From NCBI GenBank assembly GCA_037974665.1, contig CM075783.1, positions 20,802,762-20,866,761 of the forward strand: a stretch of DNA of 64,000 nt. Reading direction: 5' to 3'. The DNA comes from Ehretia macrophylla (lineage: Eukaryota; Streptophyta; Magnoliopsida; Boraginales; Ehretiaceae). Below the pieces are notes generated by a model. The model was not told the origin of the DNA and did no database searches. It saw nothing but the letters and a program-made list of their open reading frames with translations. Position numbers and translations under genes: made by a program. Positions 459 through 61,633 of this stretch are shown one piece after another (within the stretch, counting starts at the first letter, position 1; each line of letters begins with the position of its first letter).

Positions 459-2068
459 ATGGAATTTCCGTCGATTTGGTACCTCTCCTTTTGGTCCATC
501 ATCAGCCAGGTATCTCTATTAATAGCAGTTGTTGCTCCATATGAGGTCCATCTCCCTGTTCTCCAATTCCCTCATATTATATATATCCCTATATTTTTTT
601 CAACTTTTTATGCCTTCCTTGTACGGCCTATGATGGAACCTGATCTAACCACCGGAAGTGTTTCAAATGAACTCTATCAATTCTTTAAAACGCTCCTAGT
701 TGTGATAACAATACCATTTTATTCTTGGATGCTTCCGTTGTACCAGCAGTTGACTTTTTACTTCAAAGTGTGTGTGCCATTGTTAATAGTTTTAGGGGTA
801 CCCCGGTGCTTTTTCTATCTTTATCCACGCTATGTGATAAGTAAAGATATGGGAAGCTATGTGATTGGATTTGCAGGCCCTTTGCGAGTGTACCTCTCTC
901 ATACTTTTTTGTGTGTTTCGTTTATAGCTTTTTTTCCCTTGGTTGCATAGGTGGTATCTTTTCATGGTCCGTTTGAAGATCAAGAAATTGTTGAATTCTT
1001 TCAATCTCTTATTTCTTCGTTGATAGTAGCATTATTCCTAGTTCAGTTGTGCTTAAATCCTTTCCTAACAGGAATTGGGGCATCTATAGTTGGAAAGGTA
1101 AAAATGATTCAGATCCCTCTTGGGTTGTTAATTTATGTTATAGTTCAGTACAACATCCCAGAAAAGTCAGTTCCTCTTTTGGTGATGCTGTCTTCCTTTG
1201 CCATTTCTTGGCTAGCTATCCTCGCCATGATCCGACCTCCTACTTACTGGGGAATTTTCAAATTTTTTATTGGTGTGATCCTGGATTCGGCTATAAGTCT
1301 CTTCGGACTAGGCAAATTCACCTGGATTGTTTTTGCTGGTTGTGTCGTCCTCCTGCTCTTGCGACAGAAGTTGAATTCTGTGACATTGCGTTATCCTCGG
1401 CCTCAGGCACGAACAACTATTATGAGCAACTGGCGAAGTCTAGAAATCCAGATAGAGGAAACAGCTCTTTTGTTGTATAAATGGACGGGAAAAGAAAATA
1501 AAGGAAATAGAAGACTAAGTGATGATGAGTTCAGTTTTTTTTCATATTTCTTGTTTTGCGCGGCTAAGTTAATTATGGAAAAAATGGCAAGAAAGGAAGA
1601 AGAAAGCAAAGACAAGCTTATTGATAAGTTACTTCATTTCACTCTCCACCTGCTAATTAAGCAAAAAGAGGAAGGGACGGAAGATGAAATGAAGATGAAG
1701 AAAAGGTAAAAGATGAGCTAATTTATACATTATGCCATCTCTATTTCCGACTGTATATTGTAGAAGAAAAAGGAACAGAAGAGCAAACTAAAAATTGCAA
1801 AATTGCTCTATGTTCGTATCTGGTCTTTTTCTTGTTGCAGAAGAAAGCACATGAACAAGAGAAAGCAAAAGAAGAGCGAATTATTAGACTTTGCCTTTGC
1901 AACTTAGGCCAGCTTTGCCGAGAGATGGAGGACACTAGAAAGATAAGGGAAAATAAGAAAGTGAAAATAGTTGAAATTGGACTCTCTTTACCAGGACTGA
2001 TTCCAGGTTCAAACTCATTATGCCATCTTCTTTTCGTTATTTTGTTAGTTTCCTCCCATGGCACCTAG
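459..2068 (+). pseudogene. Array copy 1: multi-pass membrane protein, interrupted
   Basis: This is a member of the unrecognised membrane protein family of this window. The ATG at 459 opens the conserved N terminus (residues 1-20 end in SIISQV). The frame runs 163 codons to a TAG at 948-950 and continues in the same frame to 1709. Against copy 3 the TAG replaces the tyrosine of its SYLVSS stretch, so a single TAC to TAG change explains it. A frameshift near 1690-1709 moves the reading into the frame that ends at 2068. That last part carries tail modules resembling copy 3 (an LIYTL-LYFRL module, then an IIRLCLCNLGQL module). The membrane part keeps the IPLGLL, LRYP and MSNW signatures. The N-terminal half or the middle part could still be translated, but a full-length protein would need readthrough and a frameshift. 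Lesions come from comparison with copy 3; function is unknown. Confidence 0.8.
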
Positions 2069-8837: not shown

Positions 8838-10666
8838 ATGGAGTCTTCTTCGCTTTGGTACCTCTCTATTTGTTCCATCATCAGTCAGGTATCTCTAAAA
8901 ATTGCCCTTGTTGCTTCAAATAAGGTCAATCTCCCAGTTCCCAATTTTATTTGGGAAATCTTTTGTTCGAGTCTATTTCTACTTGCATGCTTTTTCATAT
9001 TTCTATGCCTTCTTTTCACGACCCATGATGGTGCATGATCTGGATATCGGGGATAGTTCAAAAGAACTCTTCAACTTCTGTAAATTTCTTCTCTTTGTAA
9101 TTGCTGTTTTCATAATATTATCCCTGCGGTTCAGTTTTCCCTTTTCAGAATTTTTAATTCACATTATGGGCACACTGGTTGTCTCTCAAGTCTTTCCTGG
9201 CCGCTTTTTAAAAATTGCCGAACTGGGAAGAAACTACTTGATTGGATTTGTAGGCCTTTTTCTAGTGTTCCCCTTTCATACTCTCTGTTGTGCTTTATTT
9301 ACAGCTTCTTATTTTTTAGTTGTATACTCGACTTCTTATCAAGATCGGTATGAAGCTGGGAAGATTCTAGTTGCTGTTAGTTTCTGTTTGAACATTGCAA
9401 CAGAATTTGTCCGATGGAATTCGAGTCTTCATCGTAATTTATCACGAATCGGGTCATATATACTTAGGATCCCGAGAGGTTACATAAAATTGATTGAAAT
9501 ATTTATTGGATGGTTATTTTACATTCTAGTTCAGTACTTCATCTAGGAAAAGTCGCGTTCTCTTTTGGTGATGCTCTCCTCCTTGGCCGTTTTCTGGCTG
9601 TCTAACCTCGCCATGATCCAACCCCCAACTGACTTGGGAATATTCAGTTTTATTGTTGGTGTTGTCCTGGATTGTGCAATAAGTTTGTTTAGGCTCCACA
9701 TATTCACCTGGATTACTTGGGCTGGTTGTGGCTTCCTCGGCTTCCTGTGGTGGAACTTGAATTCAGTGACACCGCGTTATCCTCGGGCACGAGCAGATGT
9801 AATACTCAAATGGCGACGTCAAGAACAGGAGGTAGCCAGCGAGGGTGGTTTGCTCAGATTTTTCAGAGCTATGAGGAAGAGAATGCTACTCGGTGGTATT
9901 CTGATTTTATCATCTGAGCTCTTCTTATTAGCAGAGATGTTAAGTAAGCAAAAAAGAGCTAGAAAGGAAAAAGAAATCAAACACATGCTAATTGATAATT
10001 TAGAACTCACCCTCCAACTGCTTGAGCAGAAGGAGGAAGGAATGGAGAAAAAGAGAATAGCTGAGCTAATTCATACGCTATGTCAACTCCTTTATGGACT
10101 GCGTAATGTTGTAGAAGAAAAAGCAATGGCGCCAGAAGAAAAAGAAAAGGAAGAAGAAAAGAATCGGCAAATTGTTCTGTTTTCACGTGTAGTCTTCATC
10201 CTGCTGCTGAACAGATCAAAAAATACCAGAAGTATTTTTGTAGATTTTTTTTGTGATGTGTTTTTTTTCTGGAAAAGAAATTATTAAAATTATTAAACTT
10301 ATTATAGAAGAAGAAAACGTCGCACGAATTATTAAAATTCGCCGTCTCATCTTAGGCCAGCTTTTAATGGAAAAGGAAGAAGCAAAAGAAGATGGACCGA
10401 AAAGGACCGGAGAAGGAAAAAGGAAAGCAAAGAGAAGGCAAATTAGAAAGGGAGGATTATTAGACTTTGTCGTCTCAGATGATGGCGGAAAAATAGAAGA
10501 AAATGGAGGAGAAATAAAGAACATAAAAAATAAGAAACTGAAAGAAGAAGAGGTTGGGCTTTACTTCATGTTGGGTGCTGCCGCCACTTATGAGAGTCTG
10601 CGGTTTCGGATCGAGAGACATCGGCCAGAAGTGACGAGCAGTAGTGGTGGAAGCTCTGGAGAATGA
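8838..10666 (+). pseudogene. Array copy 2: membrane protein with tail, broken
   Basis: The ATG at 8838 aligns with the family start; an in-frame ATG at 8820 is upstream of that conserved start. The first frame holds the N-terminal hydrophobic segment and is lost by a frameshift between about 8945 and 9000; the homologous reading then continues in the frame that ends at 9546. The TAG at 9544-9546 sits where other copies have Gln (in IQEKS), which a CAG to TAG transition would explain, and the frame continues unchanged to 10287. A second frameshift in T-rich sequence at about 10253-10287 moves the tail into the frame ending at 10666. The tail contains an ARIIKIRRLILGQLL module like those of copy 3. 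It ends in a different, copy-specific segment without Lys/Glu repeats. A full-length product is not possible as written. Confidence 0.8.
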
Positions 10667-15112: not shown

Positions 15113-15155
15113 AAACCGTGTCTACTGTCAATGCGATTTTCTGAGCTATAAAAAA
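15113..15155 (+). promoter_or_regulatory. Promoter of array copy 3
   Basis: AAACCGTGTCTACTGTCAAT starts at 15113 and a TATA box, TATAAAAAAG, starts at 15147, followed by AGGCCCTTCACC. The ATG lies about 122 bases downstream. Leader sequence between them (CCTCGATTTCTAGGTTTTAG) is also shared with copies 1, 2, 7 and 8. Confidence 0.7.
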
Positions 15156-15268
15156 GAGGCCCTTCACCGATCAACAATATCTCACTCACCTCGATTTCTA
15201 GGTTTTAGTTACACTTTTCACCCCGATTCTCTTCCATATTTTGCTGACGTTGTCCTGACTCCTGATCA

Positions 15269-17035
15269 ATGGAATTTTCGTCTCTTTGGTACTTCTCCTT
15301 GTGTTCCATTATCAGTCAGGTATTTTTACTAATTGCACTCCTTTCTTTAACGAGGGTCAAAACCCCAATTCTTGAAGTCATTTGGGATAATTTCGTGTGT
15401 TATACATGTGCCCAAGTAAGCTTTTCGTATCTTTATGCCTTCTGTGTCCTTCCTATGAAAGAGCCTGATCTAACCACCGGAAATGTTTCAGATGAACTCC
15501 GAAGCTTCTTTATAAGTCTTATGTTTGTGTCAGAAGCAGCTATTTATTTTCTCTTGTTTTTCGGGTACCAGAAGTTCTCTGTTTTTCAAATAGTTGTTAT
15601 ATCATTGATTACGCTTGTATTGGTACACTTTTGCTTTCACTTCATTCATCTACGCTATATAGAAGGCAAAGAGTTGGGAAACATCTTGATTGGAATTGGA
15701 GGCCCTTTATTAGTGTACCCCACTCATGCTCTTTGCTATGCTTTATTTACAACTTCGCTTTTCTCAGTTTCTTACTTGGTTTCTTCTCAAGGTCCGCGTG
15801 AAGCTAAGGAATTGGACCGAATTGTTGTATCGTTTGCTGCTTCCTTCATTATGCCATTATTTACATTTTATAATTACGCACATCCAAATTCACGACGATT
15901 TTTTTCACATTCACATGAAAAAAACAAGGGAAATATAATAAGCATGATTGGAACCCTTGTTGGCCTGTTGGCTTATGTTCTTGCTCAATACTGGCTCCGA
16001 GAAAGGTCAATTCCTCTTTTGGTGATGTTCTCCTCATTGGCCATTCATTGGCTAGCTACTCTCGCCTTGACCCAACCTACTAGAGACTTTGGAATTCTCA
16101 ACTTTTTAATTGGTGTGATCCTGAATTGTGCAATCAGTCTCTTTGGGATCCGCATATTCACCTGGATTGTCTTTGCTTCTTGTGTCGTCCTCGTGCTCTT
16201 GCGGAGGAAGTTGGATTCTGTGGCATTGCGTTATCCTCGGGCGCGAACAAGTATTATGAGCAATTGGCTTAGCCTTGAAAAGAAGATAATCAAAACACCG
16301 CGACCTTTAGAAATACGACTAGTGGGAATCATTTCAGATAGATTTCGTAGATTTATAGCGATGGAAAAGGAAACGCTGAGGAGGTTGTGGTCGAGTTTAT
16401 TATGTGCTGATAATTCAAGTATGGAAGAAAAGAGATCAGAACAAGAAGAAGAAGAAGGCAAAAATGAGCTAATTGGTAAGTTCATTATGAAAAATAAGGC
16501 AGGCAAGGGCAAAGAAAGCAAAGACGATCTAATTGATAAGTTACGCAATTTCACCCTCCAAGAGCTTGGGCAAAACGAGAATAATGGAAAGGAAGAAGGA
16601 AGCAGTGATGTGCTAATTCATACATTATACCATCTCTATTTCCGACTGTGCAAGGAAGAAGAAAAAGGAAAGGGGGAGCAAACGAATAAGTATCAAATTG
16701 CCTTGTGTTTGTATCAACTCTTAAAAGGAAAGGAAAAGGAAAAAGGAAAGGAAAAAGAAAAAGAGAAAGGAAAGGAAGTAGAAGAAAATGAAAAAGAGGT
16801 AACAGAAGAAGCTCAAATTATTAGATTATATCGTCTAATTTTTGGTATGCTTTCGCTGGAAGAAGGAAGGAAGGAAGTGAAAATAGACATACAGCAAAAT
16901 AAAGAAATAAAGGAAGTAGAAGAACTTCGTGAGAAAGAGTTGGCAAAGGAAGCTCAAATTGTAAGACTTTGCCGTCTTATCTTAGGCCAGCTTTTGCTAA
17001 AACAAGGAAAGGGAAAAGAAATAAAAGATGAATAG
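15269..17035 (+). CDS. Array copy 3: intact 588-aa multi-pass membrane protein with modular charged tail
   Basis: I do not recognise this family. The ATG at 15269 is the first ATG of the frame and aligns with the start in all other copies. Residues 1-311 are hydrophobic, with likely membrane segments near 8-28, 38-60, 80-98, 103-127, 138-170, 187-203, 222-241, 246-266 and 273-311 (by eye). Signatures shared by the copies are SIISQV (14-19), MKEPDLTTGN (63-72), GGPLLVYPTHALCYALF (144-160) and LRYPRA (320-325). No cleavable signal peptide is evident; the first segment looks like an anchor. Residues 312-588 form a tail rich in Lys and Glu with repeated short hydrophobic helices: DDLIDKLRNFTLQEL (419-433), DVLIHTLYHLYFRL (447-460), KYQIALCLYQLL (474-485), EAQIIRLYRLIFGMLSL (514-530) and EAQIVRLCRLILGQLLL (561-577). 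Single exon as read. It is the only complete tailed copy. Function is unknown; a membrane scaffold or sensor is only a guess. Confidence 0.8.
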   Translation: MEFSSLWYFSLCSIISQVFLLIALLSLTRVKTPILEVIWDNFVCYTCAQVSFSYLYAFCVLPMKEPDLTTGNVSDELRSFFISLMFVSEAAIYFLLFFGYQKFSVFQIVVISLITLVLVHFCFHFIHLRYIEGKELGNILIGIGGPLLVYPTHALCYALFTTSLFSVSYLVSSQGPREAKELDRIVVSFAASFIMPLFTFYNYAHPNSRRFFSHSHEKNKGNIISMIGTLVGLLAYVLAQYWLRERSIPLLVMFSSLAIHWLATLALTQPTRDFGILNFLIGVILNCAISLFGIRIFTWIVFASCVVLVLLRRKLDSVALRYPRARTSIMSNWLSLEKKIIKTPRPLEIRLVGIISDRFRRFIAMEKETLRRLWSSLLCADNSSMEEKRSEQEEEEGKNELIGKFIMKNKAGKGKESKDDLIDKLRNFTLQELGQNENNGKEEGSSDVLIHTLYHLYFRLCKEEEKGKGEQTNKYQIALCLYQLLKGKEKEKGKEKEKEKGKEVEENEKEVTEEAQIIRLYRLIFGMLSLEEGRKEVKIDIQQNKEIKEVEELREKELAKEAQIVRLCRLILGQLLLKQGKGKEIKDE

Positions 17036-20070: not shown

Positions 20071-20379
20071 ATGAACATATTGGCTGGATCCCTAGGCCCT
20101 TTACTTGTGCGCCCCTCTCATACTCTTTGTTTTGCTTTATTTATAGCTTCTCTTTTCTCACTCAGATACTTGCTTTTTGTTCAAGTTCTAATGGTTGAAT
20201 CTTATTTAAATGTCCTTCTAAACGCATTTCTTGTAAGTTCACTGTGCTTCAGAAAATTTATTTCACAAATTGGGTCATATATAGGTAGAAACACAAATGG
20301 AAAAATAAAAGTAATTGAAATCCCTCTTGGGTTGTTGGGTACTGCTCTAGCTCAATACTACGTACAAGAAAAGATATGA
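20071..20379 (+). pseudogene. Array copy 4: internal fragment with a new start
   Basis: About 102 codons match the middle of copy 8 almost residue for residue: GPLLVRPSHTLCFALF, LRYLLFVQVL and IKVIEIPLGLLGTALAQYY. The N-terminal third is missing. Intergenic sequence that lies about 450 bases upstream of copy 8's start (ending TCACTTAAAAATGAA) is joined here directly to the coding sequence, and the ATG of that junction falls in frame. The 3' side is cut after QEK and joined to 3'-flank sequence that in copy 7 lies about 465 bases further on. So two deletions bracket the fragment. No family promoter precedes it. A three-segment peptide could in principle be made, but I call it a pseudogene. Confidence 0.75.
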
Positions 20380-21800
20380 TGTGGTAGATCAGTTTTATTA
20401 TTCGTTCCGAGAGTTTAAGGTTTGATGCAAGCTATGACAAAATATTAACCGTTATAATCGTGTACCACAAAGTAATTTAATTTGCATGGACTACTTGTAA
20501 TTACATGTTTTAATATAGGGTCCCTTTTTATATACATGCAAGATATTAATTCGTTGTTATAAGTTCATATTTTTCTAAGAAACATCCTTCTGAGAATGAA
20601 TATTAATGGCATTAAACTATGTTATATTACCAGTAATGTACTCAAAGGGACATTCAAGAGTTGGATACAATAACCGTATAACGATATATTGTAGGTTTTA
20701 TCAAATCACAGCTCTCCATTTCATTAAAGAATAAATAAATAAATGTACTCAAAGGACACAATGGCGCCCCTCTACTCATATATTGAAGGGTGCAAGAATA
20801 TTTCATCTAGCCTAATCGCTATAAACTCAAGCATGTGGTACCACCAAGTCAACAAATATAATGATTGTTTAGCTAATTTTGACTTAAGCCAATGACTAAG
20901 AAGTCACTCTAAAGCATTCCCGACTCCCCAACAAGACCTTGTACTACAAGATAAAAAAAGGTGTAATCTTCTAGATGCTAACTATTCAGTAACTCGGTTT
21001 TAATTACCTCCATATACCTGCAAATAGAAAGGAAAAAAGAAAAAAAAACAAAAAAAAGAAGAAGAAGAAGAAGAAAAAAGATCTTAGTTTCTTTGCACGA
21101 ATCTTTTTTTATTTCAACTTTTCTTAGTTCTTTTTTTTTTTTTTAAATTTTGGCCCCTTCTACCTAAGCATGTTTATCATCTTTTTTTTTATTGTCTTTT
21201 ACATATTGAGGTAAATAGTTGGTATGTCTTGAAAAAGGTACAAAATTTTGCCAGCGAATTTTGTAAATATTGTTATTGTTAGCTTCATTGTGTTGTGTGT
21301 ACATTACATGTAATTATTCGTAATTAGGATATAACGATAGTCAAATTATGCACGATAAAATGGGACTTAATGACTTATACATATCGTGTATGGATTACAT
21401 CATCGTTATTCCTATTAAAGAAAATTGACATTTAAATATGTTAGTTATGTGCTTAGATAAATATTATGTAATCATTGGCGTGACAGGTATAAATCGGACG
21501 AGCATTATCACAAATTATTTTATCATCCAGTCAAGTGGAAGAATGTTAATCTTTTCGTAAAGCGGCATTACCCGACCGCATAAAGTTGCAATTAGCAATG
21601 TAGTTGTTAAACGACCAAATTCATGAACATATCTCTGGCCTCTTATGTTAAGGTACACATAGTGAATTCATAAAATAAAAAAATATATAAATAAGTAAAT
21701 ATTGAGTCTCTTGTATCTAAGGCAATAGTAAATCAGCCAACTTGGAAAGTTCATATAAACACCTACGGATATTTCTTCATTGTGGTATATTTAGTAGGAT
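20380..21800 (+). repeat. Downstream block D after copy 4
   Basis: Very similar to 61.79-63.19 kb over its whole length: GGTTTGATGCAAGCTATG, CGTTATAATCGTGTACCAC, then AAGCATGTTTATCATC and GCGAATTTTGTAAATA. These two D blocks look like the youngest duplicate pair in the window. No gene is seen. A (GAA)n tract lies at about 21056-21076. Confidence 0.65.
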
Positions 21801-30537: not shown

Positions 30538-33261
30538 TTTTCATCACATACATGATTAGTGAAACTTTTATTCTTTTAATGATAACAGATAAAAGATAAC
30601 TCCAAGCACATCTTTAATATATGAGCTAAATTCTAGTTAATTTATATATAATCATAGGCATGATAGATATCTAATGAAATCAAGTTCACTCACTGATTGC
30701 TGCAGATACATATGCAACAACCTTGAATGCTAACACACTGGTTGCAATAGCTAATAATATGCAAACTGAACCAGTAGAAAAGTTGAAAATGATATAATCA
30801 ATGTGTTTCAGTCAACTTCTGTATCAATCAAACCTTGAATGTACTTTTATGAATTATGTAAAGATGTGTAACGAATCAGACACATGTGCAGGACCACAAG
30901 AATGATATTGATGCTGAGCTGGCTCTTGAGGCATAACCACCTCTGACGGATCACAACAAAAAGAATGAACCAGAGTAGTTAAGAAAAGACCTGTGTAACA
31001 AATTGATTCCTAGGCATCTAGATGGTTACATAAAAAAATAAGAATAGCATGAATGAAGGCCTATATCTACAAAACCAATTATATATGAGTTTTGGGCATC
31101 AAGAAAATTGTATTAGCTCTCTAGTTTTTACTTTCATCTCTAAGAGTTTGTCCAGTTCACTATGAAAAAACTTATTGTAATTCTCTGTTTACTACAATTC
31201 AATAAAAGCTTCTCTTAGTTCTTCCCTAATTCGTCTTTTAAATACTGAACTGCTACATTACAAGACGGAAATGGTATCACTATGAAGAATTGATGGCTTA
31301 ATTTACACTCGGGATAAGTATGTACTAACAATGAAAAATTTGCACTACACAACTACAAGGAATTCCAAATAGTCTATATTCCTTCAAACAATTAGGAAAT
31401 TCCTTAACATTTTTGGTTGCTTACAAGGAGCAGGGGAAGACTGAACAAACAAACTTAATTATGTCACAAGGAACACAAAAGGCCTTAAACTAGTATATGG
31501 GTTATCCATTTCTAACCTCTCTGTTTTGTTCATAACTTACACATCTTACAAAACAAAAGAAATAGAATAAGTTTTACCTAGCAGGAAATATAGTTTAGTA
31601 GAATTACTACTAATAGTCAGGTAAAAGGATGCAGAAGGCATCAGACACTAAATAGTGATCAATATATACAATTATATTGATCACTATAATAATAACACGA
31701 GTAATTACTTCTCGAAAAAGAAAAAATAATAACATGAAGTATTGGTCATAATTCTCCTTCATCATCCAGCTTGAACCAGGCTCTTTTAAATTTTCCAACT
31801 CTTTATCCACAGAATTATGGTGCAGTAAAATCTATTAATAGACATACATCAAAGGGAAGGGAAAAAAAAGGTTGAAAGAAAGCCTTGACCCTCCCCCAGA
31901 AAAACATCTATCAATATACATAATAAATATCTCTCTAAGGCCATTTTTCAAACATGTAATGTACATAAATACAATTTACGGTGTATAACAATAAGTTTGG
32001 ATCTCTTAATAATATAATAACGTGAATAAAAAGATCAATGGTGGTGAATTTTTGCTACTTTCGGCTATGAAAAATTTGAACTCTATTTTACGGAAAGGAC
32101 AAATTTCACCATTAGTTTTCGTGTTCAGCTTCTCATGCATTGTTTCAATTGTGTGCAATGAATTCAGTATTGGATAGCTCTCAGCCGAAGGCCTTTGGAT
32201 AAGCATGAACATTGAACACACCATTGATTCCTCTTGACATTCTAGAAGTGAATTGTGGGCCGTTGTGCCCACTCATACGCTAACTCTGCGCTTACCAATC
32301 TTGATAAACTTTAGGACACAAATTGAATGAGACCATATGGTGAGTGCCAATGTGCCATGCTGATGCATCTTCTCAAGGCACAACTTCCACCGACCCCATT
32401 TACGTGAAGTCCAAGAGCTACCTTTTACCTAATTTTTTGTAGAACACACCATTGATTCCTCTTGACATTCTAGAAGTGAATTGTGGGCCGTTGTGCCCAC
32501 TCATACGCTAACTCTGCGCTTACCAATCTTGATAAACTTCAGGACACAAATTGAATGAGACCATATGGTGAGTGCCAATGTGCCATGCTGATGCATCATC
32601 TCAAGGCACAACTTCCACCGACCCCATTTACGTGAAGTCCAAGTGCCACCATTTACCAAATTTTTTGTAGTGCAAGAATATTTTGAAAATGTCTAATCAT
32701 ATTTTTGTCACTCTAGAATGAAAAGGTGGTAGATGTATGCTACTAAAACAACATTCAATTGTCAAATTGAGAAAGCCATTAACTAGGAGATGACGACTTC
32801 AAAGACTACTGTTAGGAAAGTGTGAAAGATAGTATTGCTCAAAAGTATATACATAGAAAAGGATAATCAAGTCTACATTTGAGTAGTATACGTACTAGAA
32901 GTATAATATACTCAAATAGATTCATTTTTATTTACATCAAAAAGTGAAGGCATTGCACCAGCATTCTCAACAAAGATGATGAAACAAAATATAAACTTTC
33001 AATCAATGCAATGCATAACATGAGATTCATTTACTGGACTTTCATTTTATTAGGTAAAACATCTCTAGTTTTTGTGCCTACAAGTTACAAAACTTCTTTG
33101 CTAACAGTTTCCAAAGAATGAATGCATTTATTTCACATATCAAAGTTAATTTATAACTCACTAACTCTATCCAATCAAGTTCAACATTAAAGAAAAAACT
33201 TATATTTTATAAACAAAAAAAGCACTTCACAACACACGAAAAAGACGTGTTTACTTACCAC
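30538..33261. other. CACTA internal spacer, no gene seen
   Basis: This AT-rich stretch between the two transposon genes probably holds introns, an upstream TNPA exon and regulatory sequence. The frames at 31610-31810 and 32006-32272 show no known pattern. The only structure I see is the 228-bp tandem duplication at 32215-32670. Confidence 0.4.
32215..32670. repeat. 228-bp tandem duplication inside the CACTA element
   Basis: Unit 1 (32215-32442) and unit 2 (32443-32670) both contain CCATTGATTCCTCTTGACAT (32221 and 32449), ACTCTGCGCTTACCAATC and CATATGGTGAGTGCC, and close with TTTTTTGTAG. They differ at only a few positions, so the duplication is recent. Each unit ends in TTTTTTGTAGT or TTTTTTGTAGA, like the end of a CACTA element. 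Confidence 0.9.
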
Positions 33262-36200: not shown

Positions 36201-37116
36201 GGAAAGTATCTCATAACTTTACAAACAATTTGTTTCTTTTTGTATCTTCTACCATTAACTCCATTCTCCTGTTGCCAACGAGAAGAATTACAAACATGAC
36301 AGGATTGTTGCTCTGCTCTAACACCCCTATACAACATACAGTTATTTGGACATACATCAATATTTTCATACCCCAAACCTAAAGAATTTGTTATCTTCTT
36401 TGCTTCGTATAAAGTTTTAGGAATATTTGATTCTGGAAATTGTTGTTTCAAAAATTTAAGAAGCATGTCAACTGATTTTCCACTCCATTTGTAGTAGGAT
36501 TTTATGTGCATGAGTTGGATGGTAAATGATAATATGGTAGATTTGGATCTAGGATAAATTTCTTTGTTACCTTCTTAAAAGAATTAAAAAAACCCGGCAG
36601 CTTCTTCATTAGGACCATATTCACTTTGAATGTGCGGCTCAACATTAGGAGCGCCGCCATTTGCAATATCTTATTCTACATCTTCTCTCATTGCATTTGA
36701 TATATCATGAATTCCAAATGCATCCCTCATTAACTCATCTTCATTTATTGCATTTTATGTATCATGAATTCCAAAAGCATCTCTCACTAACTCGTGCATA
36801 TTGTAATTTTCTTCAAGTGGACTATCGTGTGATGAGTTTGAAGCAATTGGAAATGGTAAATCTGTAGTTACAAAATCTTCTCCATGGCAAACCCAAATAG
36901 TATATCCCTTGGTCATTTGCAGACTACATGATTTTTCACATCATCGCACTTTTGATATAGACGATTGACACACATAACGCAAGGGCATAATATTTTTTGA
37001 GGTGTAGTAGCATCGTAAGGTGGAGTACATTGACTAAACGCAAAATCGAGACACATCTCTAAGCCATTTTCATATTCGTCGCTATATCGTGGCTTCGTCA
37101 TCCAACTTTTATCCAT
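33262..37116 (-). pseudogene. TNP2-like CACTA transposase, broken by in-frame stops
   Basis: From the ATG at 37116 the first exon has the transposase-associated domain (MDKSWMTKPRYSDEYENG, then CPCVMCVN). A one-base frameshift near 36912 leads into GYTIWVCHGE. The tnp2 domain follows: IPKTLYEAKK, CPNNCMLY, CHVCNSSRW and RYFPLIPRLQRLYMSS; then after an in-frame TAA (36067-36065, following AWKAFD) VRLALASDSFNPFG, SIWHVILMPYNL and DFPAFANLSSWSTK; then after an in-frame TGA (35692-35690) a CPCC motif, GHKYCYLGHRRW and LPYWEFNILRHNLDVMHIEK (about 35309-35250). A frame change near 34945 leads to FRWMYPIERY, HPEGSIAEGY follows near 34540, and a DUF4216-like part (33972-33667) ends LFRCDWAD. Domain order is complete for a TNP2/TNPD transposase, but as written it cannot give a full protein. 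The exact 3' end is uncertain. Confidence 0.8.
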
Positions 37117-38985: not shown

Positions 38986-39118
38986 AGTTTTAATTACACT
39001 TTTTACCCCGATTCTCTTCCATATTTTGCTCACATTGTTCTGATCATGGAATTTTCGTCCCTTCGGTACTGCTCCTTATGTGCCATTATCAGTCAGGTAT
39101 TTTTATAATTGCACTTCC
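38986..39118 (+). pseudogene. Array copy 5: leader and first codons only
   Basis: The leader at 38986-39045 (CCCCGATTCTCTTCCATATT) matches copy 3 closely. The ATG at 39046 is followed by about 19 family codons ending in SQVFL, where a one-base deletion relative to copy 3 creates a TAA. Similarity to copy 3 ends near 39118. The TATA box is gone, and the matching promoter remnant lies on the far side of the CACTA element at 26065-26085. Confidence 0.75.
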
Positions 39119-46819: not shown

Positions 46820-46870
46820 AAACTGTGTCTGCTGTCAATGCCATTTTCTGAGCTATTAAAAAGAGGCCCC
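46820..46870 (+). promoter_or_regulatory. Promoter of array copy 6
   Basis: AAACTGTGTCTGCTGTCAAT (CCGTGT changed to CTGTGT) is followed by AGCTATTAAAAAGAGGCCCC, where the TATA box has become TATTAAAAAG. Both key motifs are thus altered, which fits a dead copy. Confidence 0.6.
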
Positions 46871-46899
46871 TTTTTTTTTTTTTGGGGGGGGGGGGGGGG
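46871..46899. repeat. T13-G16 homopolymer block
   Basis: Thirteen T then sixteen G sit between two versions of the AGAGGCCC leader motif. This may be an expanded tract or an assembly artefact. Confidence 0.85.
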
Positions 46900-47236
46900 T
46901 GGAAGAAAAAAAAGAGAGAGGCCCTTCACCAATTAACAAGATACGCGGTTACGCAGTTTCACCCTCCAAGAGCTTGGGCAAAAAGAAAATGGAAAGGAAG
47001 AAGGAAGCAGAGATGATCAGCTTATTCATACATTATACCATCTCTATTTCCGACTGTGCAAGGAAGAAGAAAAAGGAAAGGGAGAGGAGACGACGAAGAG
47101 GTACCAAATTGCCTTGTGTTTGTATCAAGTCTTATGTTTGTTGCACAAAAAGGAAAAAAGAAAAAGAGAAAGGAAAGGAAGTAGAAGAAACTGGAAAAGA
47201 GGTGGTAATAAAAGAAGCTCAATTAATTATTAGATT

Positions 47237-49294
47237 TGTCACGACCCCAAATTTTAGCAAGTAAAATCTGGAAACGAGACTGCCGCGAACCTAAAAAGGG
47301 TATATCCTCCCTAAGCGCGCAAGACACTAATTCTAAATGTTCCAAATGTAAAACTAAGACCACCAGTAGAACAATAACTTGCAGAGCAACTAAACCAACA
47401 TAATACAAATATAATATATGCGAATCTCCAACATAAAATTTTGGAATAAACTCCCCAAATTACAATGAGATCATAGAGAATACTATGGTAATAACAATAC
47501 AAAAACATCTAAACACAAGAAAATATCCTAATACCCTTGCTAAAATATCCAACCACACAGAAATATCCAAAGAGGCAAACAACTCTCATTTATTAATCAA
47601 TAATCTAAGAACTTGAAACGAAGATCACTATATAACGTCAAGATAGTCTCCTACCCATAACTTTGCAAAAGACCTATTCTTCACATGCTCAAAATAAGGT
47701 TTAACGAAAAGAATGAGATAAAAATCTCAGTAAGTGTGAAGATCCCCCAAAAATAACATGGGACCTTTACAATAAAAATATATATGGACAACAATATAGT
47801 AATGAAATGAGACGAAAGGAATCCAATAATCATGCAATATAACTAAGTATGAACTAACAAAATGTATAGTCATGCCAAAAATCCAGAATTTAATCTGTCG
47901 TAGTACAAAAATGTTGTGCCAAAATTCAAAACTCAAAAACTCATCAGACCACTATACCAAAACTCAAACATGGTTATGGCTACAATTGGTAGCATAGTCT
48001 AAAGATGGTTAGATGCGTTCAACCATCACAAGCGAAAGGGGATCCCAACGAAAAGATTGTGCACAATCCCAAAACTCAGTGTATGTCAAGCCCGACTGAG
48101 AGAGGGTTCAAATCTCGCTATACCTGCTAGCTAGGTCACAGCCCCAAAATATGGCACAAGTGGTCCAAAATAGTTCTTATCAAGTCTCAATAAAAATGTC
48201 GAAACCTTCATAAAAGTACATACAAATATACACCAATTGGTCCCAAGTTTTCTTTTTTTGTTTTTGTTTTGAAAGCAGAATAGCACTTAGGTTTTGAAAG
48301 AAAATAACTATTGCTTGAAAATAAATAACTTGTCAATCTTTATAGAAATTAGAGTAAAGATATATATTTTTTTATATTAAAGAGCAACAAGCAGGTCACT
48401 GCTTGGCCTATCGTTGGTCACAAAAAAAAAAAAGGGTGAGTAGTGACCTGGTCACTATTCACGTGAATGGTGAGTACAGGTACTATTCACTGTATTTTTT
48501 TTTTTTTAAGAATCTATTTTAAGAACTATATATGCTATGCAGACAGATGGTATAAATAAGACGTTTTAATAAAATATAACAAGAATACTACTGCTAGTAA
48601 AATGGACATAACTCTCTCATGCATTCTATCTAAACTTCACATGAACCATAACAAAATTATTGTTAACCAAAAAAAATTCAATACATCCAAGAAAATAATA
48701 TTTTAGTAACTTTATAAATCAATTTTATTTCAAACTCACAAATCATAACTCTAAAAGTTAAACGATATTAGGTAATGAAAAAATAAGTCTTTCTACTTAC
48801 CTCTTGTCCAGCAATTAAACCTAACAAATTCTAAGTTTGAAGAACACAACCTTTCACAAGATTCCTTACCTTCAAAAAAACACATGAACACATTCTATTA
48901 CAATCTCCTATCAACATAGGTTACGCACTCTAACGCATATTTTATTGTGAAAAACCTACAATAAACTATTAATAAAGATGTGACTTAGGTTCTTACCAAT
49001 TAAACCTCACGGTTTCTCTTAAAGCTGCTTCCTGTATAATATTTTGCACCCAAGTTTTCTTCCTTTTTTGAGCATTTGATATGAGGTTTAGGGAGAGAGT
49101 GTTAGGATTCTGCTAATACATTAAACGTATTTTTTCTTTCTTTCAATGAGGGTCTTATGTTGTAACTGATAACCCCCACTAGTAGGATAAGCCCACTATT
49201 TTAGTCTGAGTGGGAAACATACTCCACCAAAATAGGCCCATTATTCATTTATTTATTTATATCTATATATACTTTTTTTTTTTGGGTCATTACA
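47237..49294 (-). repeat. LTR, 3' in element orientation
   Basis: This is the shorter LTR, without the GAATCG insertion. On the plus strand it starts TGTCACGACCCC and ends GGGTCATTACA. Confidence 0.85.
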
Positions 49295-50718
49295 TTTTTC
49301 CCCCAAAAGAAAAGTTTTGTCCTCGAAACTTAATTTTCCATCATTTCCTTAAAGTCACAAATTATTCGGTGATATGTCTTTCTCATATTTTGAGTAGCCT
49401 CTGTCGCTGGACGTTCTCAAAAAAAAAAAATTGCCCCTAAATATTATCCTCATTAATGTCAACAATAATAACAATAAAAATGTCATCTTAGATGCTTGAA
49501 GCTTTCAGTCAAATTCTTAGTGTGTCACAAATTGTATTTTCACAGAAATAAATGGCACAAAAATGACAAGTCAGAACCTCGGAATTTCTTCTCCAGAATA
49601 TTGAGACCCCAAACATCTATAATCTTAACTTTGAGGAACGCTAACTTGAATTCCTTAATACCCACTATAATAAAGAACTAACAAAAGAAAAAAAATTATT
49701 CTCCACAAGCATCAGATGCTTTATGGAATCTAAATATTTGTTCCATTCAACATATTTTTCCACTATTCTCTCCAAAGTGTTAACATCTGAAAACAGATCA
49801 CCAAAAACTATTTCATGACAAAGGAAATGTGCATTTCTCACAATTATAATATAATTACTGGCAATCATGGAAGACAATTTTTGTTTTCTTCTCTTCACCA
49901 ATTATCAAACGCATACTGTCCTATTTACCTCGCTAAGATAGATCAACACAAAATATATATGGTTAACACCTGAGCAAAATTTTTATTTAATTTTTTTTAA
50001 AAAACTACATAATGTGAAGACCATGCCATGCAAATCCTGCAACTATATCTCATGCTACTTTCTCTTCTTTTCAAAAGTCACTTTTGACAAAAACTACTTG
50101 TATCCTGTCAGCGAGACGAAACGGTTAATATCCTCATTTCTTTATACAAGATTCTAAAATCATACAATAGCAATACTACATATCTCGATTGAACTAGATC
50201 ACAAGTTTGAACCTACTCAAGCGCGCTAAGCCTATAGCTCAATATCTTAGGCCTGATTATAGGATCATAAACCAATTGCTTCTATTTATCACAAGGTATC
50301 ATCCGGCTACAGTCAGAGACTATACATGGTGATTATGACCTAAGCTCTATTGATACCTCAAATCACCAAATTGATTTCCTACATTTAACATCTAACTAAT
50401 ATACCCAAGATCATGTGATAAATGTAAAGATAACTAAATCTAATTTAGTCGTTAAACTCTAAGTTCGTCAAAACAATCACATGCTAAATTTCTTATACCC
50501 AAAATCAACATGACCCAAAAGATCATAACTCAAATCACCAAATTGATGGCCTACATTAAGTTTCGTCCTCGAAACTTAATCTCTTAGATAATAAATTTCA
50601 GGGTCACAAACCAAATTCAAAACTAATTAAATATAAGTCTAACCATAAGAGGCAAAAGCTTAATTACTCAACCCACTAAGGCTGCAAGTGATCAAAACCT
50701 ATTGCTCTTATACTACTC
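49295..50718 (-). other. Interior of the LTR retrotransposon
   Basis: No gag or pol motifs are seen. The longest minus frame (49665-49901, 78 codons) is unrecognised. A GTTTCGTCCTCGAAAC-type palindromic stretch near 50565-50580 resembles the TTTTGTCCTCGAAAC sequence next to the LTR at 49315, so a second, partly deleted element end may lie inside. Confidence 0.6.
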
Positions 50719-53318
50719 TGTCACGACCCCAAATTTTAGCATGTAAAATCTAGAGACGAGACTGCCGCGAACCTAAAAAGGGTATATCCTCCCTAAGTGC
50801 GCAAGACACTAATTCTAAATGTTCCAAATGTAAGCCTAAGACCACCAGTAGAACAATAACTTGCAGAGCAACTAAACCAATATAATACAAATATAATATA
50901 TGCGAATCTCCAACATAAAATTTTGGAATAAACTCCCCAAATTACAATGAGATCATAGAGAATTCTATGGTAATAACAAAACAAAAATATCTAAACACAA
51001 GGAAATATCCTAATACCCTTGCTAAAATATCCAACCACGTAGAAATATCCAAAGAGGCAAACACCTCTCGTTTATTAATCAATAATCCAAGAACTTGAAA
51101 CGACGATCACTATCCAACGTCAAGATAGTCTCCTACCAATAACCTTGCAAAACGCCTATTCTTCACTTGCTCAAAATAAGGTATAGCGAAAAGAAGGAGA
51201 TAAAAATCTTAGTAAGTGTGAAGATCCCCCAAAAAAAACAGGGGACCTGTACAATAAAAATATATATGGACAACAGTATAGTAATGATGAGACGAAATAA
51301 ATCCAATAATCATGCAATATAACTAAGTATGAACTAACAAAATGTATAGTCATGCCAAAAATCCAGAATTTAATATGTCGTAGTACAAAAATGTTGTGCC
51401 CAAATTCAAAACTCGAAAACTCATCAAACCACTATACCAAAACTCAAACATGGCTGTGGCTACAACTGGTAGCATAGTCTAAAGATGGTTAGATGCGCTC
51501 AACCATCACAAGCGAAAGGGGATCCCAACGAAAAGATTGTGCACAATCCCAAAACTCAGTGTATGTCAAACTCCACTGAGAGAGGGTTCAAATCTCGCTA
51601 TACCTGCCAGCTAGGTCACAACCCCAAAATATGACACAAGTGGTCCAAAGTATTTCTTATCAAGTCTCAATAAAAATGCCGAAACCTTCGTAAATGTACA
51701 TACAAATATACACCAATTGGTCCCAAGTTTTCTTTTCTTTTGTTTTGAAAGAAAATAACTATTGCTTGAAAATAAATAACTTGTCAATCTTTAAGGAAAA
51801 TAGAGTAAAGATAATTTTTTTTTTTTTATATTAAAGAGCAACAAGCAGGTCACTGCTTGGCCTATCGTTGGTCACAAAAAAAACGGTGAGTAGTGACCTG
51901 GTCACTATTCATGTGAATAGTGAGTACGGCATAGTTGTCGAATCGTGAATCGAAATGTCATTTTTTTGAATCGTGAATCGAATTGAATTGTGAATCGTAC
52001 CAATTCGGTCACAAATTTAAAACTAGTTGATATTTGACATATTATGTTTTTATTAACAGTATTTAGTTGAGATTCTTTATTTGAATTAATATTAATATAT
52101 GTTTTTGTTACTTTTCTAGATTGTTCACTACTTCACTTATTTCTAGTAGCCCAAACAATTTCTGCATCACAATATCACACTATTTTTTTTGGTCGGAACA
52201 ATATCACATTTCACAAGTGTCCAAACTAGTGCTCAAAAGCTACTGTAAACACAAGTGATCCAATCAGTTAGGAGTTTTGTCTCCCTTTTTTTACTAAAGT
52301 GGGCTTATTTTGTTATCTACTTTGAAATATTTTGGGCTTTTTAAAAAAAAAAAAAAAATTGACCCGAATCATGAACAATTCAGTGAATCGTTCGATTCAC
52401 ACGATTTGCTACGATTCGGTACCGATTCACTTGAGATTCACGTCGATTCACGATTCTCCTATTTAATTCATATCATTTTTTTAGTGAATCGTATTGAATC
52501 GTACGATTCGTATCTAATTGCTATTCACTATATATATATTTTTTTTAAGAACTATATATGCTATGCAGACAGATGGTATAAATAAAACATTTTAATAAAA
52601 TATAGCAAGAACACTACTTCTAGTAAAAGGGACATAACTCTCTCATGCATTCGATCTAAACTTCACATGAATCATAACAAAATTATTGTTATCCAAAAAA
52701 AATTCAATACATCCAAGAAAATAATATTTTAGTAACTTCATAAATCAATTTTATTTCAAACTCACAAATCATAACTCTAAAAGTTAAAGGGTATTAGGTA
52801 ATGAAAAAAGAGGTCTTCCTACTTACCTCTTGTCCAGCAATTAAACCTAACAAATTCTAAGTTTGAAGAACACGACCTTTCATAAGATTCCTCACCTTCA
52901 AAAAAACACATGAACACATTCTATTACAATCTCCCATCAACATAGGTTACGCACTCTAATGCATATTTTATTGTGAAAAACCTATAATAAACTATTAACA
53001 AAGATGTGACTTAGGTTCTTACCAATTAAACCTCACGGTTTCTCTTAAAGCTGCTCCCTGTATAATATTCTGCATCCAAGTTTTTTTCTTTTTTTGAGCA
53101 TTTGATATGAGGTTTAGGGAGAGAGTGTTAGGATTCTGCTAATATATTAAATGTATTTTTTTTTTCTTTCAATGAGGGTCTTATGTTATAACTGATAACC
53201 CCCACTAGTGGGATAAGCCCACTATTTTAGTCTGAGTGGGAAACATACTCCACCAAAATAGGCCCATTATTCATTTATTTATTTATATCTATATATACTT
53301 TTTTTTTTGGTCATTACA
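50719..53318 (-). repeat. LTR, 5' in element orientation, with insertion
   Basis: It starts TGTCACGACCCC and ends TTGGTCATTACA on the plus strand. It is about 540 bases longer than its partner, mainly because of an insertion at 51930-52519. Confidence 0.85.
51930..52519. mobile_element. GAATCG-rich insertion in the LTR
   Basis: The partner LTR lacks this piece (it reads GAGTACAGGTACTATTCAC there). The left end, CATAGTTGTCGAATCGTG, and the right end, GTACGATTCGTATC, match the ends of the hAT-like element at 42377-44476, in reverse. I found no exact target duplication, and the right end lacks the last bases. Confidence 0.6.
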
Positions 53319-53530
53319 AGATTGTATCGTCTAATCTTTGGTATGCTTTCGCTGAAAGAAGGAAGCAAGGAAGTGAAAATAGACATACAGCAAAATGAAG
53401 AAATAAAGGAAGTAGAAGAAATTCATGAGAAAGAGTTGGCAAAGGAAGCTCAAATTGTAAGACTTTGCCGTCTTATCTTAGGCCAGTTTTTGCTAAAAAA
53501 AGGAAAGCGAAAAGAAAAAAAAAAGATGAA

Positions 53531-54150
53531 TAGGAAACACAAAGAAAGTGTTAGAATGTGTAGATACAGAGTTTATTGTATTGAGTTAAGGAATTGCTTG
53601 AAATATGCTTGTATTAATTAGGGGTTCATATAAGGCACTCGATGTATCTTTTTCATTATCTCGCTTTTTTTTTCAGTAATGTAATCAACGTAATCTTTTT
53701 TTTTTCTTTCTCATTCATATCTTCAATTGTTTATTTCAACATGATATGAAAGGTTTCGTTTTGGTAGCCCGTGCCATTATCATCTTATCATTCTTTTTGT
53801 AGTACTATAATCAACATAACCTCTTTTTCTTTCATTCATAACTTCAATTGTTTATTTTAATATGGTATGAAAGGTTTTGTTTTAGTAATCCGTACCACTA
53901 TCATCTTATCATTCTTTTCATGGTATTATAATCAGCATAATCACTTTTTCCTTCATTCATAGCCTCAATCATTTATTTTGACATGGTATGAAAGGTACCA
54001 TTTGCCATCTCACTGCCACATCAGCCAAACTCGTGTCTCTTGGTTTTTGGGCAATTTTCTTCCACATCCAACCTGTTCCTTCTGATTCATTTTGTCGCAT
54101 TAGGTTTTCAAAATTCAGCCTTTAGGGTAGGAGTTAGGCTTATATACGTA
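53531..54150 (+). repeat. 3' flank of copy 6 with three 121-bp units
   Basis: The anchor AACATGATAT / AATATGGTAT / GACATGGTAT occurs at 53738, 53859 and 53980, a period of exactly 121. Copy 3 has two units and the stranded piece at 11.8-12.0 kb has one. After the array, ACATCAGCCAAACTCGTGTC matches about 17.40 kb. Confidence 0.7.
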
Positions 54151-54627: not shown

Positions 54628-55683
54628 ATGGAATTTTCCTCGCCTTGGTACTTGTCCTTTTGGTCCATCATCAGTCAGGTGTCTCTTCTAATTGTACTTT
54701 TAGCTTTAAATAAGGTCTGTGTCACAGATCCCGAAGGCATTTGTTTTGTTCTTCGGATTGGTATACTTGTCCATGCATGCTACTCATATTTTAATGTCTT
54801 CATTATAGAACCTATGAAGGAAACTGATGTATATGATGGAAATCCTATGCTGTTATTCTTCTTTGGAAAGCTCATTCTTCTACAGATCTTAATACCTGTT
54901 TATTTCTTCAAGTTCATTTATAATGTCGAAGTGCCCGTTTGGCTCATTGTCACTGGCTCTTTGATTATGGGTGCGGCTATATCCCTTATCGCTTACTCCA
55001 ACTTTGTACGCTATAGAAACAGTAAAGAGATGGGGAACTTATGGTCTGGATTCCTAGGCCCTTTACTTGTGTACCCCTCTCACACTCTTTGTTATGCTTT
55101 ATTTGTAGCTTCTCTTTTCTTAATCAGATACTTTGCTTATTGTCCAGCTCTATGTGAACCTGTAAAAAGGGTTATACTAGCTCAGCAACCTTCTGGCATA
55201 ACGATTGTATTATCAATAAATTCATTATTCTGCTTAGGTAATTTCCATATATTATTTGAGTTGTTTATAGGTGGAGATGCTAATGGAAATATAAAAGTAA
55301 TTGAAATCCCTCTTGGGTTGTTGGGTGCTGCTTTAGCTCAATACTACATCCAAGAAAAGTCCCTTTCTGTTCTGGTGCTGCTCTCATTCTTTGGCGTTTT
55401 TTGGCTAGCTCACCTGCCCATGACCCTACCTCGAAATGATTTTGGAATTTTGAACCTCATTATTGGTGCTATCATGGATTGTGCAATTAATCTCTTTGGG
55501 CTCGGAAAATTCAGTTGGATTTTCTTCGGTTGTTGTGTCTTCATGCTCATCTTGCAATCGAAATTGAAGTCGGTAACATTGCGTTATCCTCTGGCACAAG
55601 CAATTGTAATGAGCAAATGGCTAAGTGTACAAGAGAAGATAGCCAATGAGAAATATTTTGGTCATATATTAAAATTGTTCTAA
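54628..55683 (+). CDS. Array copy 7: intact 351-aa membrane protein without tail
   Basis: The ATG at 54628 opens the family N terminus. The frame is uninterrupted and contains the whole membrane part: EPMKETDV (61-68), SKEMGNLWSGFLGPLLVYPS (131-150), HTLCYALFVASLF (151-163), IEIPLGLLGAALAQYYIQEK, LAHLPMTLPR and LRYPLA. It stops 30 residues after LRYP, so the Lys/Glu tail is absent. The 3' flank at about 55766-55805 still reads RKEEEIKSKLIEK, close to tail sequence of copy 1 (RKEEESKDKLIDK), so the tail was lost by decay or deletion, not absent originally. There are 8 to 9 likely membrane segments. It has the best-preserved promoter. It may make a shorter product than copy 3. Function unknown. 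Confidence 0.8.
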   Translation: MEFSSPWYLSFWSIISQVSLLIVLLALNKVCVTDPEGICFVLRIGILVHACYSYFNVFIIEPMKETDVYDGNPMLLFFFGKLILLQILIPVYFFKFIYNVEVPVWLIVTGSLIMGAAISLIAYSNFVRYRNSKEMGNLWSGFLGPLLVYPSHTLCYALFVASLFLIRYFAYCPALCEPVKRVILAQQPSGITIVLSINSLFCLGNFHILFELFIGGDANGNIKVIEIPLGLLGAALAQYYIQEKSLSVLVLLSFFGVFWLAHLPMTLPRNDFGILNLIIGAIMDCAINLFGLGKFSWIFFGCCVFMLILQSKLKSVTLRYPLAQAIVMSKWLSVQEKIANEKYFGHILKLF

Positions 55684-59469: not shown

Positions 59470-60531
59470 ATGGAGTTTTCGTCAATTTGGTACTTGTTCT
59501 TTTGGTCCATCATCAGTCAGGTATCTCTTCTAATTGAAATTTTTGCTTCAAGTAAAGTCTCTCTCCCAGTTCCTCTGGACATTTGGTGTCTTCTTCATCA
59601 TCTTTTACTTGTCCATTCATGCTTTTCATCATTTTATGCCTTCTTTGCACGACCATTGAAGGAGCTTGATCTAGCCAACAAAAAAGTTTCGAATGTGCTC
59701 GCTGTCTTGTGTGGACACCTCTGCGTGACACTATTCTTCTTACCTATTCATTTCCTGTCGTTCATACCCACCCAGGATTTATCTGTTTCGTTCATTTTCA
59801 CTGGCTTTTTTGATTATGCTATCCCTTTTCGGTTACTCCAAGTTTATACGCTATACAAAAAGTAAAGAGATAGGGAACATATTGACTGGATTAGTAGGCC
59901 CTTTACTTGCGCGCCTCTCTCATACACTTAGTTTTGCTTTATTTATTATAGCTTCTCTTTTCTCACTCAGATACTTGCTTTTTGTTCAAGTTCTACTTGA
60001 AGATCTGGGAAGTGTTCTAGTGGTTGAATCTTATTTAAATGTCCTTCTAAAGGCATTTCTTGTAAGTTCACTGTGCTTCAGTAAATTTATTTCACGAATT
60101 GGGTCATATATAGGTAGAAATACAAATGGAAAAATAAAAGTAATTGAAATCCCTCTTGGGTTGTTGGGTACTGCTCTAGCTCAGAACTTCATCCAAGAAA
60201 AATCTCTCTTATGGTGCTGTTGTCCTCCTTTGTCGTTTATTTGCTAGCTAATCTCGCCATGACCCAACCTCGTACTGACTTGGGAATTTTCAATTTCATT
60301 ATTAGTGCTATCATGGATTGTGCAATTGGTCTCTTTGGGCTCGGCGGCAAATTCACTTAGATCGTCTATGTTTGTTGTGTTGTCATCTTCCTCTTGCAAT
60401 GGAAGTTGTATTCCGTGACACTGCGTTATACTTCGGCACGAGCAAGTGTAATGAGCAACTGGAAAACTGTAGAAGAAAAGTTAGCTAATGCAGAACCTTT
60501 AGAGGGGTTATATGAACTTTTCAAAGCATAG
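59470..60531 (+). pseudogene. Array copy 8: membrane protein without tail, broken
   Basis: The family start is the ATG at 59470; an in-frame ATG two codons earlier (59464) may also be used. The frame fails near 59810-59865; the homologous reading continues in another frame with SKEIGNILTGLVGPLLARLS. A second shift near 60205, after IQEKS, leads back to VLLSSFVVYLLANLAMTQPR. A TAG at 60358-60360 replaces the Trp of the family FTWI motif. The frame then runs through LRYTSARASVMSNW to a stop at 60529-60531. The residue pattern is very close to copy 4, so the two share a recent ancestor. A tail remnant (KEEECKDKLIEK) lies at about 61717-61760, beyond a 1060-bp MITE. Confidence 0.8.
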
Positions 60532-60564
60532 CTGGAAAGGGGAAACTAAACAACCTTTCCTTTA

Positions 60565-61624: not shown

Positions 61625-61633
61625 TTTCCTTTA

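Follow-up and report, generated by a model that had tools for sequence, protein, structure and literature searches.

An apparently unclassified family of predicted multi-pass membrane proteins multiplied within a 2.6-Mb block of the Ehretia macrophylla genome

Introduction

Plant gene blocks of megabase scale that evolve fast consist mostly of immune receptors, F-box genes or genes for small secreted peptides. Among these, the clusters of NLR and receptor-like genes are birth-and-death arrays in which intact and broken copies stand side by side, exchange sequence and change quickly. An N-terminal membrane part followed by a long soluble part is known from other plant proteins, i.e., those of the DUF4220/DUF594 type and the plastid protein Ycf1/Tic214. 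A further system to be considered here is the wtf family of fission yeast. According to PMC6526906, this family is multicopy, includes pseudogenes, encodes predicted transmembrane proteins and undergoes non-allelic gene conversion; its genes contain internal repeats that vary in length, and some members show high nonsynonymous diversity (PMC6526906).

Here we describe a gene, referred to as copy 3, that lies in a window of 64,000 nucleotides (the whole stretch of DNA that was analyzed; C20:20802762-20866761, where C20 is a contig of 52.9 Mb). Judged by anatomy, the wtf killer-driver family appears to be its closest documented parallel. Like wtf, the copy 3 family consists of membrane proteins in many copies, some of them pseudogenes, between which non-allelic exchange takes place; a linker that differs in length among the few copies read may parallel the internal repeats of wtf. 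It differs from wtf in its Lys/Glu-rich tail. The wtf genes are killer drivers with poison and antidote products from two transcripts. Pfam holds a wtf family, to which no sequence relation was found in scans at E-values up to 5 or up to 1. The likeness to NLR and receptor-like clusters lies in the arrays of intact and broken copies, the sequence exchange and the fast change; however, the copy 3 product is a multi-pass membrane protein for which Pfam lists no NB-ARC, LRR or kinase domain. With DUF4220/DUF594 proteins and Ycf1/Tic214 it shares the order of a multi-pass part at the N terminus and a hydrophilic part behind it, but neither of these Pfam families occurs among the nine window proteins and five further proteins scanned. 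The reading that we prefer, and to which we give an even chance of being right, is that of a lineage-specific membrane-protein family mixed by gene conversion, in which the frame is kept while residues turn over very fast and which is probably related to conflict.

Copy 3 and its predicted product

Copy 3 is one open frame at window positions 15269-17035 (+) that encodes 588 amino acids from the ATG at 15269 and ends with the stop codon at 17033-17035. Counted from after the preceding stop, the frame extends over 15266-17035 and has 589 open codons. Its elements are the following.

15147..15155, + strand: TATA-box-like element, TATAAAAAA, recognized in the aligned 5-prime regions of the copies
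15269..16243, + strand: membrane part, residues 1-325, with about 9-11 hydrophobic segments, from hydropathy and the tblastn paralogues
16244..17035, + strand: Lys/Glu-rich tail (263 residues) and stop codon
near residues 513-531 and 560-578: duplicated helical modules of the tail, 47 residues apart

The 5-prime regions of the copies can be aligned, and TATAAAA or TATAATA is present at the equivalent position in five of seven; of the remaining two, the copy at 46.8 kb has TATTAAA and the one at 38.9 kb is diverged.

The initial annotation of this stretch proposed eight to nine membrane segments, which is a fair lower count: residues 9-311 contain eleven 19-residue windows with a Kyte-Doolittle value of at least 0.9. 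The Lys/Glu-rich tail that it described behind the membrane domain is also borne out, residues 326-588 including 45 glutamates and 38 lysines (83 of 263 residues). Within the tail there is one further hydrophobic 19-residue window (residues 558-576, value 0.96), and other short hydrophobic stretches are present as well. That the last two tail helices are duplicates had been proposed by eye from the letters and now holds statistically. The top self-match of the tail, EKEVTEEAQIIRLYRLI / EKELAKEAQIVRLCRLI, has a score of 58, which neither 300 residue shuffles (best, 45) nor 300 shuffles retaining the hydrophobic pattern (best, 46) reached; the final two modules are thus true duplicates and not a product of chance. 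The accompanying guess that the tail helices skim the membrane or serve oligomerization found no such backing. Taken together, the five tail segments have a helical moment no higher than expected by chance (1034 of 5000 shuffles match or surpass it), so that a special amphipathic role for these helices is unsupported.

Structure prediction, which had been suggested as a check, was run with AlphaFold2. The full copy 3 model is all-helical and of low confidence (pLDDT 53.1, pTM 0.31), as is the model of the membrane part (pLDDT 45.6, pTM 0.25). Because both are low-confidence models, we draw no conclusion on topology or fold from either. According to the positive-inside rule, the positively charged flank of a membrane segment faces the cytosolic side. 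As the basic stretch RRKLDS..RYPRAR follows right after the last membrane segment, the tail is predicted to be cytosolic.

Search for known relatives

In Pfam, no family scored above its curated cutoff for copy 3, the window paralogues or three further intact copies of the family. These scans covered nine window proteins at E-values up to 5 and five further proteins at E-values up to 1. Cullin_binding, the best Pfam match of copy 3, reached 12.9 bits against a cutoff of 27.9 and was rejected. NCBIfam gave only sub-threshold matches, and both single-sequence and profile searches of PDB sequences produced no convincing relative. Viral contigs and prokaryote genomes were scanned with the 325-residue core, a search that reaches close relatives only, and yielded none. 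A description of the family was not found in the excerpts of the literature on orphan plant membrane families and DUF4220 clusters, nor in those on membrane-type self-incompatibility determinants and plant pollen killers. The initial annotation, which spoke of an unrecognised family with a duplicated-helix tail, was right in outline. Its word "unrecognised" stands for the libraries searched, and the family appears to be unclassified in the sense of being unmatched in Pfam, NCBIfam and PDB sequences.

The multi-pass helical membrane core would also be expected of an ordinary plant transporter or channel family, locally expanded and already carried in plant databases as an uncharacterised protein. 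Nevertheless, the core matches no Pfam family at cutoff and no PDB sequence convincingly, and its near-neutral residue turnover (see below) is unlike that of housekeeping transporters, in which such amino-acid turnover in the core is not typical. We therefore consider an ordinary transporter or channel very improbable.

Family copies in the window

The window holds eight family places, copy 3 included, when the tail pieces at 46946 and 53313 are counted as one split copy. Paralogues found by tblastn on the same strand as copy 3 are located at 459, 8838, 20074, 54628 and 59470. Two of the eight places are intact, copy 3 (15269) and the copy at 54628-55680, and the other six are broken or fragmentary. 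Apart from copy 3, the following features were recorded.

459..1975, + strand: broken paralogue with an in-frame stop at 948-950, a frameshift near 1688 and tail stretches present
8838..10390, + strand: broken paralogue with a frameshift near 8965 and a stop at 9544-9546
20074..20373, + strand: paralogue fragment of 100 codons, 87% identical in amino acids to the copy at 59470
39046..39105, + strand: fragment covering codons 1-20 of a copy, with 17 of 20 residues as in copy 3
46840..47236, + strand: promoter-like stretch joined directly to tail codons (copy 3 residue 424 onward)
47237..53318, strand not assigned: LTR element inserted in the tail of the split copy, with AGATT on both sides
53319..53540, + strand: remainder of the LTR-interrupted tail, found by tblastn
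54628..55680, + strand: intact paralogue of 350 amino acids, membrane part only, tail absent
59470..60528, + strand: broken paralogue, membrane part, with frameshifts and stops

In the copy at 8838, a weak tail match extends to 10390 (E 0.004). The split copy (46840-47236 plus 53319-53540) is missing the membrane part, and its tail (46946-47231 plus 53313-53540) was then interrupted by the LTR element, whose LTRs (47237-49294 and 50719-53318) differ at 118 of 2034 aligned bases. On the far side of the element, the tblastn match at 53313-53522 is 86% identical in amino acids to copy 3 residues 517-586. Tail stretches are found in other copies at 1688-1975, 9925-10206, 46946-47203 and 53313-53522. 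With such stretches present in the split copy as well as in those at 459 and 8838, the tail is not peculiar to copy 3.

The stretch 20074-21693, which takes in the fragment at 20074 and its 3-prime flank, resembles 60014-63155, in the region of the copy at 59470, in several blocks of 91-95% DNA identity; by these alignments, the likeness is that of a recent duplication within the window.

The family across the genome

The genome, comprising 1.58 billion bases in 20 contigs, was searched with the DNA of copy 3. At least 63 matches were obtained, all of them on C20 between 19,182,243 and 21,760,644 and on both strands; merging pieces within 1500 bases joins them into at least 40 places in about 2.6 Mb. 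This count is a lower bound, 40 of 262 candidates having been scored. The diverged copies of the window are not among the genome matches listed for copy 3 DNA, and diverged family members may be present elsewhere in the genome besides the C20 block.

Eight loci, L001 (copy 3) to L008, were read, these being the best-scoring matches. Five of them (L001-L005) are intact frames of 588 amino acids. L006 carries a one-base deletion, L007 differs in its start region and shows a 2-base gap close to the end, and L008 contains frameshifts and stops. Among these copies, length differs at CDS position 1455, in the Lys/Glu linker, which relative to copy 3 is 42 bases shorter in L006 and 21 bases longer in L007 and is equal in L001-L005.

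Places of like identity and strand recur at fixed offsets, with four pairs each at about 19.3, 60.4 and 147 kb and six pairs at about 1.245 Mb; every one of these offsets is conserved to within 75 bases. Four offset groups of at least four pairs were thus observed, some of which imply one another, compared with none in 1000 random placements. The pattern suggests nested recent block duplication, unless the assembly is partly duplicated. The pairs at 1.245 Mb connect six gene places at C20 19.81-19.95 Mb with six at 21.05-21.19 Mb, and point either to a large duplication of very recent date or to duplicated assembly.

How closely some of these distances are kept (the six pairs at 1.245 Mb to within 64 bases, the four at 147 kb to within 75) speaks for the close copies being partly an assembly artefact, i.e., one heterozygous block present as haplotypes that were left uncollapsed or as mis-joined duplicates. 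However, nested offsets of about 19.3, 60.4 and 147 kb and 1.245 Mb cannot all be accounted for by two haplotypes. Moreover, the repeated-offset groups contain no pair from among the five intact close copies, the flanks of these five group differently upstream and downstream, and the window alone has eight family places. An artefact of this kind is, in our judgment, unlikely.

Frame conservation and residue change

The coding DNA of L001-L005 differs by 2.2-3.4% between pairs and shows no gap in any of the ten pairs over 1764 coding bases. The flanks of these copies, taken as 600 bases on each side, differ by 1.7-4.2% (5-prime) and 0.2-2.8% (3-prime) and do contain gaps, their divergence being about equal to that of the coding DNA. 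Of 26 gap events in total, 10 at alignment ends were excluded; the other 16 all lie in flanks and none in the CDS, with 162 segregating sites in the flanks and 110 in the CDS. If gaps track segregating sites, the chance of finding none of 16 in the CDS is about 0.0003, a value biased by the preselection of intact copies. Similarly, none of the changes in the CDS creates a stop, compared with 5.3-6.3 expected for kappa 2-1. Both the gap and the stop test lean towards intactness, because the five intact copies were picked from the eight best-scoring loci. The frame thus appears, among copies preselected as intact, to be kept open along with divergence, as in a working protein-coding gene.

When copy 3 is compared with the diverged intact copy at 54628, dN/dS is 0.69 overall; the membrane part taken by itself gives 0.71 (with a pN/pS interval of 0.67-0.98). 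Against the broken copies, the membrane part of copy 3 gives dN/dS values of 0.97 (459), 0.63 (8838) and 0.85 (59470), and the tail gives 0.40 (459) and 0.50 (8838), with a pN/pS of 0.59 against the split copy. With membrane values of 0.63-0.97 and tail values of 0.40-0.59, the core is weakly constrained at the residue level and the tail more strongly. When neutral change was simulated at 0.37 changes per site in each lineage, half the dS of the copy 3/54628 pair, none of 2000 runs left the frame open for the copy 3 membrane part, for its tail or for the 54628 copy; at 0.18 changes per site, 7 of 2000 did so for the copy 3 membrane part. As neutral change at the higher rate leaves 0/2000 open, the frames were kept while residues changed.

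The initial annotation had named a Ka/Ks near 1 as a sign that would tell against a selected gene. For the membrane part, comparison of copy 3 with the broken copy at 59470 does give a ratio near 1, and the five intact copies yield values of about 1 or above; the five intact frames without a gap, nevertheless, argue against a dead gene.

Among the 105 biallelic CDS sites of L001-L005 (50 transitions, 55 transversions), 86 are nonsynonymous and 19 synonymous, giving an omega-like value of 1.34-1.59 for kappa 1-2. A test of omega >1 gives P values of 0.145, 0.069 and 0.037 at kappa 1, 1.5 and 2, respectively. The pN/pS ratio is 1.18 when summed (1.26 for the membrane part, 1.14 for the tail) and ranges from 0.80 to 2.30 between pairs. 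Taken together, these estimates put omega of the five intact copies at about 1.2-1.6, which is not clearly above 1. Relative to copy 3, the intact copies have nonsynonymous and synonymous codon changes of 27:7, 36:8, 42:5 and 45:11, and the non-intact ones of 56:11 (L006), 112:14 (L007, whose start region aligns unsafely) and 100:18 (L008). Because L006-L008 show codon counts like those of intact copies, positive selection on the family is at most suggested by these sequences.

When substitutions among the five close copies are compared with random ones, the shift in hydropathy that they cause is smaller both in membrane segments (133 of 5000 simulations had one as small) and in loops (48 of 5000); in the tail of the same copies no such constraint is seen (2043 of 5000). 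Core variation is seen around residues 41-130 and 181-215. The tail after residue 448 has only four variable positions among the five copies, so that the last 140 residues are nearly invariant; the 3-prime flank, however, is nearly identical too (at most 0.7% different in six of ten pairs), and recent homogenization therefore accounts for the invariant tail end as well as constraint does. At 30 informative sites of L001-L005, 267 of 435 site pairs conflict, which shows the genes to be mosaics of each other.

Several of these observations can be read differently, as those of a dying tandem array of once-functional genes that are copied along with large blocks, in which many copies decay, constraint is relaxed without selection for change, and the intact copies are merely recent or freshly overwritten by gene conversion. 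The broken or fragmentary state of six of eight window places fits such an array, as do coding divergence at about the level of the flanks, membrane dN/dS close to 1 against the copies at 459 and 59470, and the alike counts in broken and intact copies, which fit near-neutral drift as well. It is less easily reconciled with ten pairs without a coding gap against 16 gap events in the flanks, with the hydropathy kept in the core, or with the diverged copies at 15269 and 54628, which are open although no neutral run left either so, and have dN/dS of 0.69-0.71. We regard a dying array as a serious possibility, if one that is probably not correct.

Possible role of the family

According to our preferred reading, i.e., that of a conversion-mixed family with kept frames, copy 3 would be a working gene, single-exon-like in structure, whose lineage-specific family of multi-pass membrane proteins is being multiplied and reshuffled within the 2.6-Mb block of one chromosome. 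Its membrane core, residing in a cell membrane, would present a changing recognition or target surface, and the core residues around 41-130 and 181-215 may be the part that is pressed to change. The Lys/Glu-rich tail helices could act as a cytosolic scaffold or self-association part, a part that apparently can be lost (54628) or vary in length (L006, L007). The family would most likely take part in genetic or biotic conflict, such as immunity, reproductive recognition or selfish transmission, in which new variants are favoured. Fast residue change in the presence of several intact close copies is a pattern often seen in genes of biological conflict.

More interesting than copy 3 itself is the recently growing, mixing and fast-changing 2.6-Mb block with its intact members. 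A block of genes for an unclassified multi-pass membrane protein, combining intact frames with recent block duplication and gene mixing, would be a candidate for a system of immunity, reproductive barriers or selfishness not yet known, and the close intact copies make the conflict reading directly testable. In a bolder form, the whole block would be a plant conflict locus built on a previously undescribed membrane-protein family, either a counterpart of wtf or a new reproductive or immune recognition locus. The variable multi-pass core would then be the membrane-damaging or recognition part, joined to a cytosolic scaffold of variable repeat length, and tail-less copies, e.g., 54628-55680, would be partners or suppressors. 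This bolder form is speculative, and we hold it to be a long shot.

Other features of the window

The LTR element at 47237-53318 has LTRs of about 2.1-2.6 kb and an interior of only about 1.4 kb, with no open frame of at least 150 amino acids listed. By eye, one of its LTRs contains an extra stretch at about 51940-52490 that is absent from the other. Two frames lie on the minus strand at 34945-36574, one of which (36065-36574) has a weak likeness to a CACTA-type transposase (Transposase_21, whose score of 15.2 bits falls short of the cutoff of 28.6). Finally, 32214-32669 is a tandem duplication of 228 bases with 97% identity.
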